From assembly GCA_035635555.1 (NCBI GenBank), contig DASQAT010000016.1, forward strand, positions 62,001 to 126,000: a stretch of DNA of 64,000 nucleotides, given 5' to 3'. The notes under the pieces were generated by a model. That model saw only the letters and a program-made list of their open reading frames with translations, was not told the origin of the DNA and made no database searches. Source of the DNA: Candidatus Dormiibacterota bacterium. GTDB lineage: Bacteria > Acidobacteriota > Polarisedimenticolia > Gp22-AA2. Shown here piece after piece: positions 32,505 through 39,147 of the stretch. Position 1 is the stretch's first letter; each line of letters begins with the position of its first letter. The translations under genes and the position numbers were made by a program.

Positions 32505-33710
32505 TCAGTCTCCCCGGAGGGCCGCGGCCGGCTGGATCGACAGCGCGTGGCGCAGCGGCAGGAGAACGGCGGCGAAACAGATCAGGAGCGAGGCGAGCAG
32601 GACTGCCGGCACGACCGACAGCCGCGGCTCGATGGCGGCCCCGAACAGGCCGCTGCCGATGACCCTCACGAGGATCGCACCGAGGGCGGTCCCGGCGAGC
32701 GCCCCGATGAGGCCGAGGAGCCCCACCTCCCCCAGGAACATCTTGAAGATCTCACCGTCGCCGGCGCCGATCGCCCGCGCCAGCCCGATCTCCGACTCGC
32801 GCTCCACCACCATCGACATCAGCATGGTCACGAGACAAAGGCCCGACAGGACCAGGACGACGAGGGTGAGGAGGAGCATCATGCGGTCGAGCCGGCCGAG
32901 GAGCGCCCCCTCGGTCCGGGCGATGGCGCGCACCGGACGCGCCTCCACTCCCGGCAGCGCCGCCGCGATCCGCGCCGCGGCCCTCTCCACCGCCCGCGGT
33001 CCGCCTTCGACGGACACCGCCGCGAACGACATGCGCCCCTCCTGGCCGGTGAGCTCCTGCAGGACCGGGAGCGGCACGAAGATCTGCTCGTCCTCCGCCT
33101 CGCCGGTCGAGACGACCCCCGCGACCCGGAGCGCCGCCTCGGCCGGAGCACCGAGACGGGCGACGTCCCCCGGCTTCAGATCGGCGCGCGCCGCCAGCGA
33201 CACCCCCAGGACGCAGGAGCGTGTCTCCCCGGACGCGACCGCGCCCGTCTCCTCGGTCCGCCAGGCGGGATAGAGGCGGCGCAGCCGGGCGAAATCGGCG
33301 CCGACGAGTGTTGCCGCCTGGTCCGCGACGCTCCCGGCGGCGAGGAGGACCGGCGCCACCACGACATCGTCTCCCAGGAGACCGATCACCCGGCCCGCCA
33401 CCGCCTCGTCCAGACCGGCCCCGCGCCCCGGGCCGCCCGCCGCGAGGGAGGCGGATCCCGCCGCCGGAAGAATCAGGAGGTTCGGGCCGTACGAGCGCAG
33501 CTCGCGCGACATCTTCTCGCGGAGCCCGGCCTTCAGGTTGAGGACCGTGGCGATCACGGTGGCGCCGACGGTGATGGAGAGCAGGGCCAGGAGGAACGCC
33601 GGGCCGCGCAGGTTCAGGGAGCGCAGGAGGAAGCGGGCCGATGTCACCCAGCGGGCGGGCTCCGCATGCAGTCCGGCGCGCGGACGTCCGGGACTCCCCC
33701 TAGAGGCCAC
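32505..33710 (-). CDS. FtsX/MacB-type ABC permease, second copy in iron operon
   Basis: A 401-residue permease with a membrane helix near 33-55, a large periplasmic domain (about 60-270), and three C-terminal helices containing the FtsX signature (ERESEIGLARAIGAG). It ends LSIQPAAALRGD, typical of this family. Two such subunits with the downstream ATPase would form a MacB-like ABC complex. In the Campylobacter p19 system, similar permeases accompany an FTR1 iron permease. The GTG at 33710 overlaps the stop of the preceding permease gene by 11 bases. A GTG about 20 codons later is a possible alternative start. Confidence 0.88.
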   Translation of the reverse strand: MASRGSPGRPRAGLHAEPARWVTSARFLLRSLNLRGPAFLLALLSITVGATVIATVLNLKAGLREKMSRELRSYGPNLLILPAAGSASLAAGGPGRGAGLDEAVAGRVIGLLGDDVVVAPVLLAAGSVADQAATLVGADFARLRRLYPAWRTEETGAVASGETRSCVLGVSLAARADLKPGDVARLGAPAEAALRVAGVVSTGEAEDEQIFVPLPVLQELTGQEGRMSFAAVSVEGGPRAVERAAARIAAALPGVEARPVRAIARTEGALLGRLDRMMLLLTLVVLVLSGLCLVTMLMSMVVERESEIGLARAIGAGDGEIFKMFLGEVGLLGLIGALAGTALGAILVRVIGSGLFGAAIEPRLSVVPAVLLASLLICFAAVLLPLRHALSIQPAAALRGD

Positions 33711-35010
33711 GCAGCACCTCGGCCGGGCGGAAGGTCAGGATGCGGCGCGCCGGGACGATGAACCCGCCGATGGTGATCACGAGAGCCACGGCGACCGCCA
33801 GCGGAAGGGCGAACGGACGGATGGTCACGGGCGCGCCGAAGACCGAGGCCGAGATGAAGCGCGCCATCAGCCCGCCGGCCACCGCCCCCAGAAGACCGCC
33901 CGCCGTCCCCAGGACCACCGCCTCCGCCAGGAACAGACCGACGACGCGCGCGTTTCCGGCCCCCATCGCCTTCAGAAGACCGATCTCCGCGCGTCTCTCC
34001 AGGACACTCGTCGACAGGGCGCTCGTCACCGCCAGGGCCGATGCCGTGGCCGCCAGAAGCGCGATGATCGCCATCAGCCCCGAGATGCGGTCGAGGATGA
34101 TCCCGTCCGAATCGGCTACGCGTCGGATGACGCGCGCCTCGGCGCGCGGCACGGCGCGCGACAGCTCGAAGGCGATCGAGGACGGAAACGGCGTGCAGGT
34201 CCAGCGTTCGAAGTCCTCCGGCCGCATCTCGCCCGGCCTGGTCCCGAGTCTCTCGTACACGGCCGACTCCGGAGTCGTCAGGGCGCGGACGAACACCCGC
34301 GACACCCGCCCGTCGAGCCCCGACAGCGTCCAGGCCGTCTCGATCGGGACGAGGATCGCGTCATCCTCCTCGCCTCCCGCCGTCAGGATCCCGGTGATCA
34401 GGAGGTGCTCCGGGCGCCCCGCGACCTCGATCGTCAGCCCTCCTCCTGGACGAAGACCGAGGGCGCGGGCCAGGCCGCTTCCCGCGACAGCCTCAGGAGC
34501 GCTCCCGGTCCGCCCGGCGGCGGGCGACTCGCGGGGCCAGGTCCCCGCGACGCTCCAGTACGGGTTCAGCGCGCGCACGCCGGTCCGCAGCGGCGGCCCG
34601 TTCTCCGCGACTTCCCTGTCGAACCAGGTGCCGCGCAGGAGGACGGCGCGCCCGCCGGCCCCCGCGAGGTCCAGCCGCGCGGGAACGTCCAGGATCGGCG
34701 CGAACGCCAGGATGTTGTTCTTCCAGAAGTTGTCGCGGACGCTTCCGAGGGCGGATGCATCGAGATAGGAGGGGGCGCGCAGCGCCGACACGTCCTCGCC
34801 TCCGACGACGACCTGGGCGGCGCCCCCCTTCGGCAGGACGACGAGGTTGGCGCCGAACGAGTTCAGCTCGCCGCTGATCTTGTCGTCGATGTCGAGGGCG
34901 ATGTCCCCCAGCGCCGCGGCCGCGCAGGTGCCCAGCGCCACGGCCGCCAGGATGACGGCCCGGCGCCGCTTCCGGCGCAGGAACGAGAGCCCCACCAGAC
35001 GCAGGAACAT
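33700..35010 (-). CDS. FtsX/MacB-type ABC permease, first copy in iron operon
   Basis: A 436-residue permease: an N-terminal helix after MFLRLVGLSFLRRKRRR, a large periplasmic domain (about 45-310), and a C-terminal three-helix FtsX domain with LERRAEIGLLKAMGAG and a closing FRPAEVLRGL. The order and length match the permease pair beside FTR1 genes in p19-type iron operons. I chose the ATG at 35010 because AGGAGA lies eight bases upstream and it follows the FTR1 stop by 11 bases. The periplasmic domains of the two permeases differ, so they probably form a heterodimer. Confidence 0.88.
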   Translation of the reverse strand: MFLRLVGLSFLRRKRRRAVILAAVALGTCAAAALGDIALDIDDKISGELNSFGANLVVLPKGGAAQVVVGGEDVSALRAPSYLDASALGSVRDNFWKNNILAFAPILDVPARLDLAGAGGRAVLLRGTWFDREVAENGPPLRTGVRALNPYWSVAGTWPRESPAAGRTGSAPEAVAGSGLARALGLRPGGGLTIEVAGRPEHLLITGILTAGGEEDDAILVPIETAWTLSGLDGRVSRVFVRALTTPESAVYERLGTRPGEMRPEDFERWTCTPFPSSIAFELSRAVPRAEARVIRRVADSDGIILDRISGLMAIIALLAATASALAVTSALSTSVLERRAEIGLLKAMGAGNARVVGLFLAEAVVLGTAGGLLGAVAGGLMARFISASVFGAPVTIRPFALPLAVAVALVITIGGFIVPARRILTFRPAEVLRGL

Positions 35011-35021
35011 GCGTTCGTCTC

Positions 35022-36335
35022 CTAGGATCCCGGCGGCTTCGCCTGCTCGCGGAGCACCTTCCTGAACGCCGGCGCCTCCTGACGCAGGTCCTGGACCGAC
35101 ACGACCAGCGATCCGTCCTCGTCCCGGTGCGGCAGAGGGATGGGGTTGCAGCCGCCGCCCGTCCCGAGCGTCGCCGGGTTGATGTCCGCGGCGCACGCCA
35201 GACAGACCAGCCTCCCCTTCACGTCGGCGTAGCCGTGCGCCCCGCAGACCTGGCAGGCGTCGAACACCGGGACCATCCGGCCGCCCGACTTCTTCACGAT
35301 GAAGCGCACCACGACACCGTCCACCTCGACTCCGAAGCGGTGCAGGCGCCCGTCCGCGAGTTCGGACTCGCTCACGCGCACAAGCCCCTCGCCGTCCGGC
35401 TGCAGCATCAGGGGGGGATCGATCCCCTTCGGCAGGCGCGTGAAGGCGAACGACACCGTCAGCGAGGCGATCGCCAGGATGCCGGCCACGGCGAAGGTCC
35501 GTTTCCAGAGCCTGTCCCGGCGGAGACCGGCCAGCGCCAGGCGCTTCTCCGGGCCTTCGAGCGACTGCGCCTGCTGCGCGCGGGCCCGGTCGGCGCGGCC
35601 TGGAACGAGCAGCACGATGAGCGGCAGGGCGAGGAGCGAGACCAGGAGCATGACGTTGTTGCGCACGATCGGTCCGATGAGACGCATCTCGCCGCTGCCC
35701 AGCGGAATCGTGCCGCGCTCGCCGAACTCGTGCAGGCCGCCGACCAGGAGCTGCGCCGCCAGGACGAACAGCACGACGGCGGTGACGTTGAAGAATCGCT
35801 GCAGATCGACGCGCGCCGTGCCGCGCACGAACGACACTCCGAACAGGACGGCCAGGGCGATGCCGACAAGCCCGGCGAAGAACGCCAGGAGGGCGTCGGT
35901 CGTCAGATCGACCGCGGCCAGGAACAGCACGGTCTCGACCCCCTCGCGCAGGACCAGGGCGAAGGTCAGGCCGAACAGACCCGCGCCGACCGCCCCGGCG
36001 TCCCCCGCGGCCGGGGCGCGCGCGGCGATCCTCTCGACACGCGCCTCGATCGTCTGCTTCAGGCGCCTGCCGGTCCGGAGCATCCAGATCACCAGGCTCG
36101 TGACCAGGATCGCCCCGGCGATCATCAGCCAGCCTTCGTACGCCTCCTCCTGGATGTCCAGGGCGGCGAAGACGGCCGCACAGCCCAGGCTCCCCGCGAC
36201 CCCCGCGGCCAGGCCCCGGTAGACGAAGCGGGAGAGCGACTCGCGCCCGGTCTTGCGCAGGTAGATGAGGATGATGCCGACGACGAGGGCCGCCTCGATC
36301 CCCTCGCGCAATGTCACCACCAGGGCCTCGAACAT
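35022..36335 (-). CDS. FTR1-family iron permease fused to FtrD-like cysteine domain
   Basis: A 437-residue fusion. Residues 1-245 are an FTR1/EfeU iron permease with seven helices and the two REGxE motifs that carry iron (REGIE 10-14, REGVE 130-134). After a linker and another helix (281-298) comes an exported domain (300-437) of the FtrD-like iron-sulfur type (formerly DUF2318). Its motif is GGRMVPVFDACQVCG, with Cys at about 361, 364, 378, 381 and 396 and the closing GGCNPIP. In Campylobacter these are separate genes (FTR1 and a DUF2318 protein) of the p19 iron system. Its ATG overlaps the Fur stop by one base (TGATG). It probably moves iron inward, with the Cys domain handling redox or delivery. 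Confidence 0.93.
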   Translation of the reverse strand: MFEALVVTLREGIEAALVVGIILIYLRKTGRESLSRFVYRGLAAGVAGSLGCAAVFAALDIQEEAYEGWLMIAGAILVTSLVIWMLRTGRRLKQTIEARVERIAARAPAAGDAGAVGAGLFGLTFALVLREGVETVLFLAAVDLTTDALLAFFAGLVGIALAVLFGVSFVRGTARVDLQRFFNVTAVVLFVLAAQLLVGGLHEFGERGTIPLGSGEMRLIGPIVRNNVMLLVSLLALPLIVLLVPGRADRARAQQAQSLEGPEKRLALAGLRRDRLWKRTFAVAGILAIASLTVSFAFTRLPKGIDPPLMLQPDGEGLVRVSESELADGRLHRFGVEVDGVVVRFIVKKSGGRMVPVFDACQVCGAHGYADVKGRLVCLACAADINPATLGTGGGCNPIPLPHRDEDGSLVVSVQDLRQEAPAFRKVLREQAKPPGS

Positions 36336-36796
36336 CAGCCTTGCTTCCTCGCGGCCCGGCGGGCCCCGCCGTCGCCCGCGCAGGCGCTGCAGTATCCCCG
36401 GATCTGGTGCGTGTGCCCGGTCATGACGAATCTCTTCCGGCGGCAGACCTCCACCTGGATGCGCTCCACCTCCGGACTCTCGAACTCGAGGATGGTGCCG
36501 CAGCCCAGGCAGATCATGTGATCGTGGTGGTGCCGCCCGACCATCAGCTCGTAGCGCGCCTGACCGTGGGCCATCTCGACCTTGTGGATGAGCCCCGAGT
36601 CGACGAGACGCGGCAGGTTGCGGTAGAGAGTCGCGCGCGAGACTCCGTGCCCGGCCTTGCGCAGGCGCATTAGCAGGTCGTCGACGTCGAAGTGCCCGCG
36701 CACCGACACCACGTGGTCGAGGATGACACGCCTCTCGCGCGTCATCTTCAGATTGTGCCTGCTCAGGTACTGCGCGAACCGCTCGATGACCTGCAC
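36335..36796 (-). CDS. Fur-family metal-responsive regulator
   Basis: A 153-residue repressor. It has a winged-helix with recognition helix SRATLYRNL (53-61), the metal-binding HHHDH (89-93) with a further His in GHTHQIRG, and two Cys pairs (96/99 and 136/139) that form the structural zinc site of Fur proteins. It is the first gene of the iron operon and overlaps FTR1 by one base, so it likely controls its own operon through the palindrome at 36844-36860. Members of this family sense Fe, Zn, Mn or peroxide; the neighbours favour iron, but the sequence alone does not prove it. Confidence 0.92.
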   Translation of the reverse strand: MQVIERFAQYLSRHNLKMTRERRVILDHVVSVRGHFDVDDLLMRLRKAGHGVSRATLYRNLPRLVDSGLIHKVEMAHGQARYELMVGRHHHDHMICLGCGTILEFESPEVERIQVEVCRRKRFVMTGHTHQIRGYCSACAGDGGARRAARKQG

Positions 36797-36843: not shown

Positions 36844-36860
36844 TTGCAACACAGTCTCAA
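36844..36860. promoter_or_regulatory. Fur-box-like palindrome at the operon start site
   Basis: TTGAGACTGTGTTGCAA on the minus strand is a 17-base imperfect palindrome with five of eight pairs matching (TTG with CAA, AC with GT). It begins at the last base of the -10 hexamer, where a bound repressor would block transcription. The outer TTGA and CAA resemble Fur boxes. Confidence 0.5.
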
Positions 36861-36888
36861 TTATCCTTCCGGGATAGCGCCCTGTCAA
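36860..36888 (-). promoter_or_regulatory. sigma-70 promoter of the iron operon
   Basis: On the minus strand TTGACA (36888-36883) and GATAAT (36865-36860) are separated by exactly 17 bases. The -35 covers the stop codon of the upstream MFS gene. The first gene (Fur) starts about 60 bases downstream. Confidence 0.75.
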
Positions 36889-38093
36889 ACCGGCGGCGCC
36901 GTTCCGGCTTCCTCGGGGGGGCGGGTGCGGCGGAAGGCCGCGAACAGCAGCACGTCGTAGGCGATCTTCATGACCGAGCCGATGAGCAGGGGGGTCATCA
37001 GCGACCAGCCGGTCATGAACCAGCCGGCGAACGACGGGGCGATCGCCCAGGCTCCGACGCGCACCAGGTGGGTGACCCCCGAGGCCAGGGTGCGCTCCTC
37101 TGGGCGCACGACCGCCATGACGTAGGACTGTCGCGTCGGGACATCCATCTCGACCAGCCCCTCGCGCAGGAGGAACAGGATCGCCGCGACGGGGAAAGTG
37201 GGGGCGAATGCCACGGTGACGAGAAGGAGGCTCGAGGGGACGTGCGTGAAGACCATCGTGTTCACCAGGCCGATGCGGCGCGACAGCCAGGCGGCGCCGA
37301 GGTGGGACACGGCGTTGAAGATCCGCGCCCCGAAGAACAGCAGCCCGAGGATCCCCTCGCCGACCGAGAACCGCTCGTAGAAGAACAGGGTCAGGAGCGC
37401 GGTGGTCAGGAACCCGCCCGCCAGGCTGTCGAATGCGAACAACGACGCGATCCGCCACAGCACGCGGCGCGTCCCGGGGCTCACTTTCGTCTTCGGCAGG
37501 CCCGGGGCGCGCTCGACCCTGGGCGACAGTCCGAGGTAGAGACCGGCCGTGACGAGCATCAGGACGGCATAGACGCCGACACCGGCCCGGAACGACGCGA
37601 TGTCCGCGACGCCGAGACTCCGCAGCAGGGCCGGCAGGCCGGCCAGGAGGGCGCCGAGGGCGTGGCCGATATCCTGCAGGACGTTGTACCAGGCGAACGC
37701 CTGCGTGCGCCCGGCGTCGTCCACGGTGGCCGGCAGGATGACCTGGTCGAGGATGAGCGAGGCGCCGCGGTCGCGCCCCATCCCGTTCACCATCCCCAGA
37801 AATGCCGCGGCCCCGGCGGCGAACGGGTGGGCGGTCAGGGCGAACCCGAGCCCGCCGCAGGCGGCCAGGAGGGACAGGACGAGAAGCGAGCGCTTGCGCC
37901 CCATGTCGTCGCCGATCAGGGTGACGACGAGCGCCGCGGCCGCGCAGCCGAAGAGCCCCGCCCCGACCACGTAGCCGATGCGGGCGGGGTCGAAGTCCAG
38001 GCGCGCCATGAAGACGCCCATGAGGACTCCGATCATCCCGGTCGCCAGGGCCCGCACGAACGCCGCGGAGTACAGGATGGTGCGATCGGTCAT
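36885..38093 (-). CDS. MFS transporter
   Basis: A 402-residue inner-membrane protein with about 12 helices. The loop between helices 2 and 3 has the MFS motif in the form GDDMGRKRSLL, and the halves are joined by a basic loop around residue 200. The substrate is not recognisable; sugar, drug or metabolite export are all possible. It lies directly upstream of the iron operon on the same strand, but the operon has its own promoter, which overlaps this gene's stop codon, so the link may be accidental. The ATG at 38093 leaves a short N-terminus before the first helix. Confidence 0.85.
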   Translation of the reverse strand: MTDRTILYSAAFVRALATGMIGVLMGVFMARLDFDPARIGYVVGAGLFGCAAAALVVTLIGDDMGRKRSLLVLSLLAACGGLGFALTAHPFAAGAAAFLGMVNGMGRDRGASLILDQVILPATVDDAGRTQAFAWYNVLQDIGHALGALLAGLPALLRSLGVADIASFRAGVGVYAVLMLVTAGLYLGLSPRVERAPGLPKTKVSPGTRRVLWRIASLFAFDSLAGGFLTTALLTLFFYERFSVGEGILGLLFFGARIFNAVSHLGAAWLSRRIGLVNTMVFTHVPSSLLLVTVAFAPTFPVAAILFLLREGLVEMDVPTRQSYVMAVVRPEERTLASGVTHLVRVGAWAIAPSFAGWFMTGWSLMTPLLIGSVMKIAYDVLLFAAFRRTRPPEEAGTAPPV

Positions 38094-38143: not shown

Positions 38144-38172
38144 TTGACAGACGGCGGGCCGAAACATAAATT
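38144..38172 (+). promoter_or_regulatory. sigma-70-like promoter for the exported protein at 38212
   Basis: TTGACA (38144-38149) and TAAATT (38167-38172) are 17 bases apart. AAAGGAG precedes the ATG at 38212. This is divergent from the MFS gene. Confidence 0.65.
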
Positions 38173-38211
38173 GAGACCGCCATGACCGTCACGGCTCGAA
38201 AGGAGCTCTCG

Positions 38212-39147
38212 ATGAGACGTCCGAACCTCAATCGTGCAGTGTTGCCGGCCCTGGCCGGCCTTCTGGCGGCCCTGGCGCCCGGGACGAATCCGGCCCGCGC
38301 GGGGGACCTGCAGCGAACCATGGAATCGCGCTGGCGCGGGGCCTGGGTCCTGACATCCTTGGACACCTACTCCGACTGCGGCGGCTTCCACACCGACAAC
38401 CAGGTGAGCGGCACCCTGGTCAGCAGCAAGGGGCGGTTCCGCTTTCGCGCCGGCGAGCTGGGGCAGGTCGGCAAGGTCGACGTCAAGCGCTCGCGGATCG
38501 AGATCCTCCTCAGCCTGCCCGAGCCGGTCCTGACCTCCTTCCGGGACGGACCGTTCACGCTGTACAACGAGAACCGCTGCCTGATCGAGCTGGACGTGGA
38601 CCTGCCGCGATCCATCGTGTCGAACGACGACGCGAACGCGGTCGAGACTGCCCTCAAGCCGATCATCGGCCGGTTCGCCAGCCAGGAGGAGGCGACGCGG
38701 GCGAAGACGTGGAACCATCGCCAGCGCGACGCCTACCCCGCCGATTACGACCGCACCCTCGCCGAGCACGCCGCCTGGAAGGCGAAGCAGGCGAACGCCG
38801 GCATCCAGGCCAGGCTCGACAAGGCCATGGAGGAGACCACGCGGCTCAGCGACAGGATCACCGGTGATCCCAGCTACCTGAAGGGGTTCGCCGCCGGCGT
38901 CGAGGCGATGAAGTCGATCGACCTGACGAGGTGCAACGATCTGCTCAGCCGCGACTACGGAAATTTCGCGGCCGGACCGTCGAGCGTGATGGCGGCCCTG
39001 GGCGGAGAGGCCGCCAACCAGTACTCGCGCGGCTTCCAGGACGGGCAGCGTCTGGTCTTCGGCCTCGAGTCGCTGCGGCGGCTGCCGTCGTGCATGGTGC
39101 CGGTGCCGGAGGTCTCCTCGGACGCGCCCCGGCCGCGGGGGAACTAG
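38212..39147 (+). CDS. exported protein of unknown function
   Basis: A 311-residue protein with a signal peptide (about 1-30, ending ARA). The mature part is a beta-rich N-terminal half with a Cys in YSDCGGFHTDN, then a long helical region (about 165-225) with many Lys, Glu and Ala. It ends in a Ser/Pro-rich tail with a second Cys pair (RCNDL and SCMVP). I do not recognise a family. The ATG at 38212 was chosen for its AAAGGAG ribosome site; an in-frame ATG 30 bases earlier has none. The end overlaps the convergent beta-barrel gene by four bases. Confidence 0.7.
   Translation: MRRPNLNRAVLPALAGLLAALAPGTNPARAGDLQRTMESRWRGAWVLTSLDTYSDCGGFHTDNQVSGTLVSSKGRFRFRAGELGQVGKVDVKRSRIEILLSLPEPVLTSFRDGPFTLYNENRCLIELDVDLPRSIVSNDDANAVETALKPIIGRFASQEEATRAKTWNHRQRDAYPADYDRTLAEHAAWKAKQANAGIQARLDKAMEETTRLSDRITGDPSYLKGFAAGVEAMKSIDLTRCNDLLSRDYGNFAAGPSSVMAALGGEAANQYSRGFQDGQRLVFGLESLRRLPSCMVPVPEVSSDAPRPRGN

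Follow-up and report, generated by a model that had tools for sequence, protein, structure and literature searches.

We consider it highly likely that a predicted operator for the ferric uptake regulator Fur covers the start of an operon that is led by fur itself and continues with iron-uptake genes, that metal-loaded Fur represses this operon, and that the same Fur also controls a second operon led by apbE. The switch is of a familiar type and the bacterial lineage is little studied. This lineage, represented here by metagenome-assembled relatives alone and placed in subdivision 22 by those that are named, thereby gains a candidate Fur regulon and a Fur box tested by comparison. The genus Polarisedimenticola is tied to Acidobacteriota subdivision 22 in PMC8528874. 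Among the top matches of a search of the open-access literature, judged mostly from their listings, none dealt with a Fur box of Acidobacteriota.

Promoter, predicted operator and the fur-led operon

The window, that is, the whole stretch of 64,000 nucleotides that was analysed, contains on its minus strand (36888–36844) a −35 element TTGACA (36883..36888), a spacer of 17 nt and a −10 element GATAAT (36860..36865). The original prediction had named this arrangement, TTGACA-N17-GATAAT, and direct reading of the sequence confirms it. The reading also bears out the claim of a 17-base imperfect palindrome at the end of the −10 element. This is the predicted Fur operator TTGAGACTGTGTTGCAA (36844..36860, minus strand), assigned from sequence reading and conservation. 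It has one T, the last base of GATAAT, in common with the −10 element, and 10 of its 17 positions equal those of its own reverse complement. Judged from the spacing to the −10 element, the start site would fall at about 36853, inside the predicted operator. Upstream and outside the operon lies an MFS transporter gene (36885..38093, minus strand), whose 3′ end overlaps the promoter such that its TGA stop codon sits inside the TTGACA of the −35 element.

The first gene downstream is fur (36335..36796, minus strand; GTG start, 153 aa). Its product, the sole match to PF01475 in the genome, scores 104 bits, which supports the claim that the first downstream gene encodes a Fur protein. Among 20 aligned homologues, both CxxC pairs (C96, C99, C136 and C139) are invariant or nearly so, as are H35, E83, H91, H93 and E104; we take these residues to be the structural zinc and regulatory metal ligands. 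The regulatory site of the Fur type presumably consists of His33, Glu81, His88 and His90, plus a Glu where PerR has Asp. The best matches among solved structures, 6d57 and 4ets, have chains named ferric uptake regulation protein, and we take both to be C. jejuni Fur. The best NCBIfam equivalog is a Fur model (85.3 bits, below its cut-off of 200), and the NCBIfam Fur models outrank those of PerR and Zur, with all of them below their own cut-offs. On these sequence comparisons Fur, as against Zur, PerR or Mur, appears the best assignment for the protein, though an uncertified one.

Four further genes follow on the same strand, each assigned by profile match: a 437-aa protein that joins an FTR1 iron permease to an FtrD-like membrane Fe-S domain (35022..36335), an FtsX-like ABC permease (33700..35196), a 401-aa FtsX/MacB_PCD-like ABC permease (32505..33710), and a 359-aa ABC ATPase that carries a DtxR-type metal-binding/dimerisation domain, PF02742 (31419..32498). 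The open reading frame of the first ABC permease overlaps the FTR1 gene by 175 nt because its start is uncertain; the true start probably lies further downstream than listed. Because the genes overlap or lie a few bases apart, they are likely to form one transcript. Neither P19/FetP (PF10634) nor FeoB_C has a match in the 99%-complete genome, and no thioredoxin is encoded among the five operon genes. As P19 has no match, we call the operon FTR1-ABC type and not a FetMP system.

A further near-consensus promoter, TTGACA-17-TAAATT, was seen on the plus strand of the window (38144–38172), followed by a TTGAGA half-site. It precedes a 321-aa gene (38182–39147) whose product has no Pfam match. This site was rejected as a Fur box, since only the TTGAGA half-site is there and the right arm is absent.

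The box among relatives and at a second site

The promoter stands out in the window, where TTGACA-N15-19-NATAAT occurs once; 100 dinucleotide shuffles gave 0.01 on average. Counts of the palindrome are close to background. With at most two mismatches, TTGAGAN5TTGCAA has one match in the window against 0.60 expected, and with at most three mismatches TTGAGAN5TCTCAA has two against 8.87 expected, which is below chance. At up to two mismatches the latter pattern finds 29 places in the genome and its reversed control 16. The exact 17-mer, with up to three mismatches, finds three places in the 4.28-Mb genome and its control none; one of the three (L003) lies inside a glycosyltransferase-like open reading frame and was set aside as chance. 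Palindrome statistics alone were rejected as evidence, as the counts at loose stringency lie close to background or under it. The box stands above chance because of its conservation and because of a second site, ahead of apbE. The concern that the palindrome might recur at random across the genome is justified at loose stringency, but conservation sets the two promoter-placed sites, those of fur and apbE, apart.

By a GC3-based gene call, in which single assignments are approximate, 17 of the 29 loose matches fall inside genes and 12 outside, the latter including the fur and apbE sites. The original prediction had proposed scanning the genome for the palindrome ahead of iron genes. Such a scan does find the fur and apbE operons; by reading, none of the other extragenic matches has an iron-linked gene, including six (L039, L041, L047, L176, L178 and L182) that have some gene start within 400 nt.

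Fur homologues occur in 54 of 60 genomes, and the best match in each of the 30 best-scoring genomes was taken as a locus. A TTGAGAN5TCTCAA box scoring at least 9/12 precedes 24 of these 30 genes. In 23 of the 24 boxed loci the score was reached by 0–5 of 300 dinucleotide shuffles, and in the remaining one (L011) by 16 of 300. No box of at least 9/12 was found upstream of six homologues (L028, L029, L030, L032, L033 and L034), which are more distant (32–37% identical). When the upstream regions of the eight same-family loci are aligned, the invariant columns number 25, every one of them in the −35 element with its two preceding bases, in the −10 element or in the box, despite variation in the promoter spacer and the 5′ leader. 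TTGACA and the ATAAT of the −10 element are invariant in all eight, and in each the box begins on the last −10 base. The promoter spacer is 17–18 nt in all 12 same-family and same-order loci, and across 12 loci the box lies 15–57 nt from the start of the matched gene.

The classical Fur box is a 7-1-7 inverted repeat, TGATAATNATTATCA. The window box matches it at 8 of 14 positions, which is weak taken alone. The boxes of the four same-order loci, TTGAGAATGATTATCAA in two of them and TTGAGAACGATTATCAA and TTGAGAATGATTCGCAA in one each, match it at 11–13 of 14 positions in the same register, with 13 in two of these relatives. The window box had been noted to depart from the classical sequence, as it does, and perhaps to define a motif of its own lineage; the aligned sequences favour reading it as a variant that has drifted from the classical 7-1-7 box rather than as a separate motif. 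On the same alignments we read the lineage form as TTGAGA-N5-TCTCAA, whose right arm has become TTGCAA or TCGCAA by drift. All four same-order boxes lie 0–12 nt downstream of the −10 element, three of them at 10–12 nt. The box is thus more than promoter sequence, because its position shifts relative to the −10 element and yet it is kept.

A second collection of named loci gave 20 with scores of at least 10 and 60 below 10 among the best 80 of 551. The 20 higher-scoring loci of these best 80 include records from Acidobacteria, Zixibacteria, Rokuibacteriota, Eisenbacteria, Latescibacterota, Planctomycetota, Poribacteria, Nitrospirae, Actinomycetota and Bacteroidetes. A score of 10 was also reached by single-base shuffles at many named loci, so that single cases among them are no proof. 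The two sets of loci overlap, with at least G003, G004, G006, G007, G011, G012, G014 and G032 recurring among the named records.

The similar box ahead of apbE in the same genome is TTGAGACTGAGTCGCAA. The operon (4235–9348 of L165, G000 contig 10) encodes ApbE, a porin-like protein, an FMN_bind protein, a membrane protein and a TPR protein, of which the porin-like and membrane proteins have no Pfam match; a thioesterase gene diverges from it. By reading, the box lies just downstream of a TTGACA-type promoter, 11 nt past a −10-like TAGAGT. Matches to apbE number 14 in 13 genomes, and three were left out (G001, at a contig start; G012, 39% identical; and a second G009 copy, 37%). The box scores 10–11/12 in all 11 loci examined, those of the own genome and ten relatives, and in nine of the 11 a TTGACA was read upstream of it. 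In three same-order genomes, G009 (L050), G010 (L196) and G011 (L049), a second Fur-family gene stands between box and apbE, and in G008 (L064) the stretch between them resembles, by eye, the remnant of a broken Fur-family gene. The apbE site may derive from a promoter that once served a fur paralogue.

A one-mismatch search in 14 chosen genomes of relatives gave 44 places against 19 for the control. Seventeen of the 44 became loci and 16 were examined. Ten of these precede fur, a Fur-family paralogue, apbE, feoB or a CbiX/ferrochelatase-like gene; in the class relative G024, for instance, the box precedes feoB. The other six (L048, L053, L056, L059, L060 and L062) have no iron-linked gene by reading, and L059 and L060 are perfect 12/12 boxes without an obvious iron gene downstream.

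Other readings of the palindrome and the proposed mechanism

The DtxR-type fusion is the oddest neighbour in the operon. Its PF02742 domain scores 87 bits and matches IdeR and DtxR chains, and an AlphaFold model of the fusion (mean pLDDT 63.9, low to moderate) hints at a winged-helix-like helix pattern ahead of this domain. Full-length matches to the fusion occur in 10 of 60 genomes, the own genome included; the same-family genomes G002, G004 and G007 lack one and are 63–88% complete. In an alignment of nine of the ten proteins, EAC.FEH is kept in all nine, and three of the nine carry Gln in place of His in R[HQ]RLAE. None of the paper titles listed by a literature search describes an ATPase-DtxR fusion. 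We hypothesize that the DtxR-type domain may gate the ABC ATPase directly by iron. In the phylum relative G044 a Fur-family gene lies directly 3′ of a similar ABC ATPase without the DtxR-type part (L169, 5601–6980).

Could another regulator bind the palindrome, with fur merely one of its targets? The ATPase-fused DtxR-type domain would be an example, as it is encoded within the same operon and its model has the winged-helix-like pattern. We consider this very unlikely. Genomes that lack a full-length match to the fusion, e.g. G032, G016, G018 and G045, have the box ahead of fur, and it also stands ahead of Fur-family paralogues and feoB; moreover, the same-order boxes fit the classical Fur box. 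The DtxR box is of the TTAGG type, unlike the box in the window.

There is very little to be said for the reading that the conserved bases are promoter sequence only (−35, −10 and discriminator) and the palindrome arises by chance. Such a reading would fit the imperfect palindrome and the contact between box and −10 element in the family of the window, but in three of the four same-order loci the box lies 10–12 nt past the −10 element and is still there, and a similar box occurs 11 nt past TAGAGT at the unrelated apbE promoter. Inverted repeats near transcript starts can fold, so the repeat might serve not as a DNA operator but, once transcribed into the 5′ leader, as an RNA hairpin; this is most improbable, since a start site inside the box would leave only half of it transcribed in the family of the window and the distance from box to gene start varies.

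The preferred reading, suggested by the sequence comparisons, is that ample iron very probably leads Fur to shut down the operon that encodes it. Autoregulation, which had been proposed as the simplest explanation, is well supported by comparison: the box is kept in relatives, near-classical boxes occur in the same order, and a single Fur-family gene was detected in the genome. We infer the binding, its metal, the repression, the start site and transcription as a single operon, and the switch would operate as follows. With ample Fe(II) in the cytosol, Fur dimers loaded with metal would sit on the box and cover the −10 element and the start site, by which initiation by RNA polymerase would be blocked. 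When iron is scarce, the operon of fur, FTR1-FtrD, the two FtsX-like permeases and the ABC ATPase would be expressed. The net effect would be iron-dependent autorepression of fur together with its importer. From the conserved second box, the same Fur very probably also controls the operon of ApbE, the porin-like protein and the FMN_bind protein.

A bolder picture, which we find doubtful though possible, is that the Fur regulon of this Acidobacteriota lineage has shrunk to two operons, the FTR1-FtrD-ABC importer and the ApbE/FMN-binding extracytosolic redox operon. Together they would work as a single machine for iron assimilation, with neither P19 nor FeoB detected, in which the ATPase-fused DtxR-type domain, as a second check on iron, would sense imported iron directly and throttle ATP hydrolysis.

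Comparison with known systems

The lineage box has the register, half-site spacing and promoter placement of the classical Fur box. It differs in its arms, TTGAGA and TTGCAA/TCGCAA, and the window copy in the 8 of 14 matches given above. The E. coli consensus is quoted in PMC545781. According to the same paper, lineage-drifted Fur boxes are already known, e.g. WTGAAAATNATTTTCAW in deltaproteobacteria, where this dFUR box is a 17-bp palindrome ahead of fur and feoAB, and the predicted dFUR regulons of Geobacter are small, like the candidate regulon described here. Both the dFUR box, as presented there, and the window box are thus lineage-drifted 17-bp palindromes ahead of fur, with 9 of 14 matches between the dFUR core and the window box. 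The dFUR box precedes feoAB, whereas the targets in the window genome are the FTR1-ABC and apbE operons and FeoB_C has no match. In Enterococcus faecalis, the Fur sites TGAGAACGATTCTCA (ahead of feoAB) and TGAGAATGATTCTCA have TGAGAA arms, and iron-uptake operons with such boxes are derepressed in a fur mutant, as stated in PMC6056675. The TGAGA arms and the spacing of these sites are those of the window box; the phylum and the targets are different, and the right arm in the window is TTGCAA.

The operon itself is similar to the fetMP-fetABCDEF cluster of Campylobacter jejuni, and in particular to its fetM-fetABCD genes; the cluster carries an upstream Fur site (PMC10783030). An FTR1-type permease, DUF2318 (FtrD-like), two ABC permeases and an ATPase are common to both. 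The operon in the window differs in that it is led by fur, has the permease and the FtrD-like domain in one protein, is without a P19/FetP match or thioredoxin, and has an ATPase that carries a DtxR-type domain.

FMN-binding proteins have a proposed link to P19/FTR1 iron clusters (PMC8238504), and this link fits the apbE operon as a predicted second Fur target. Like the ApbE/FMN-binding extracytosolic flavinylation clusters described there, which are connected with iron assimilation, the apbE operon would tie ApbE and an FMN-binding protein to iron control. It differs as a separate locus that shares its box with the FTR1 operon, in a genome where P19 was undetected. On our reading, two kinds of system would be linked, with an FTR1-ABC importer and a flavinylation operon at another locus serving a single iron pathway.
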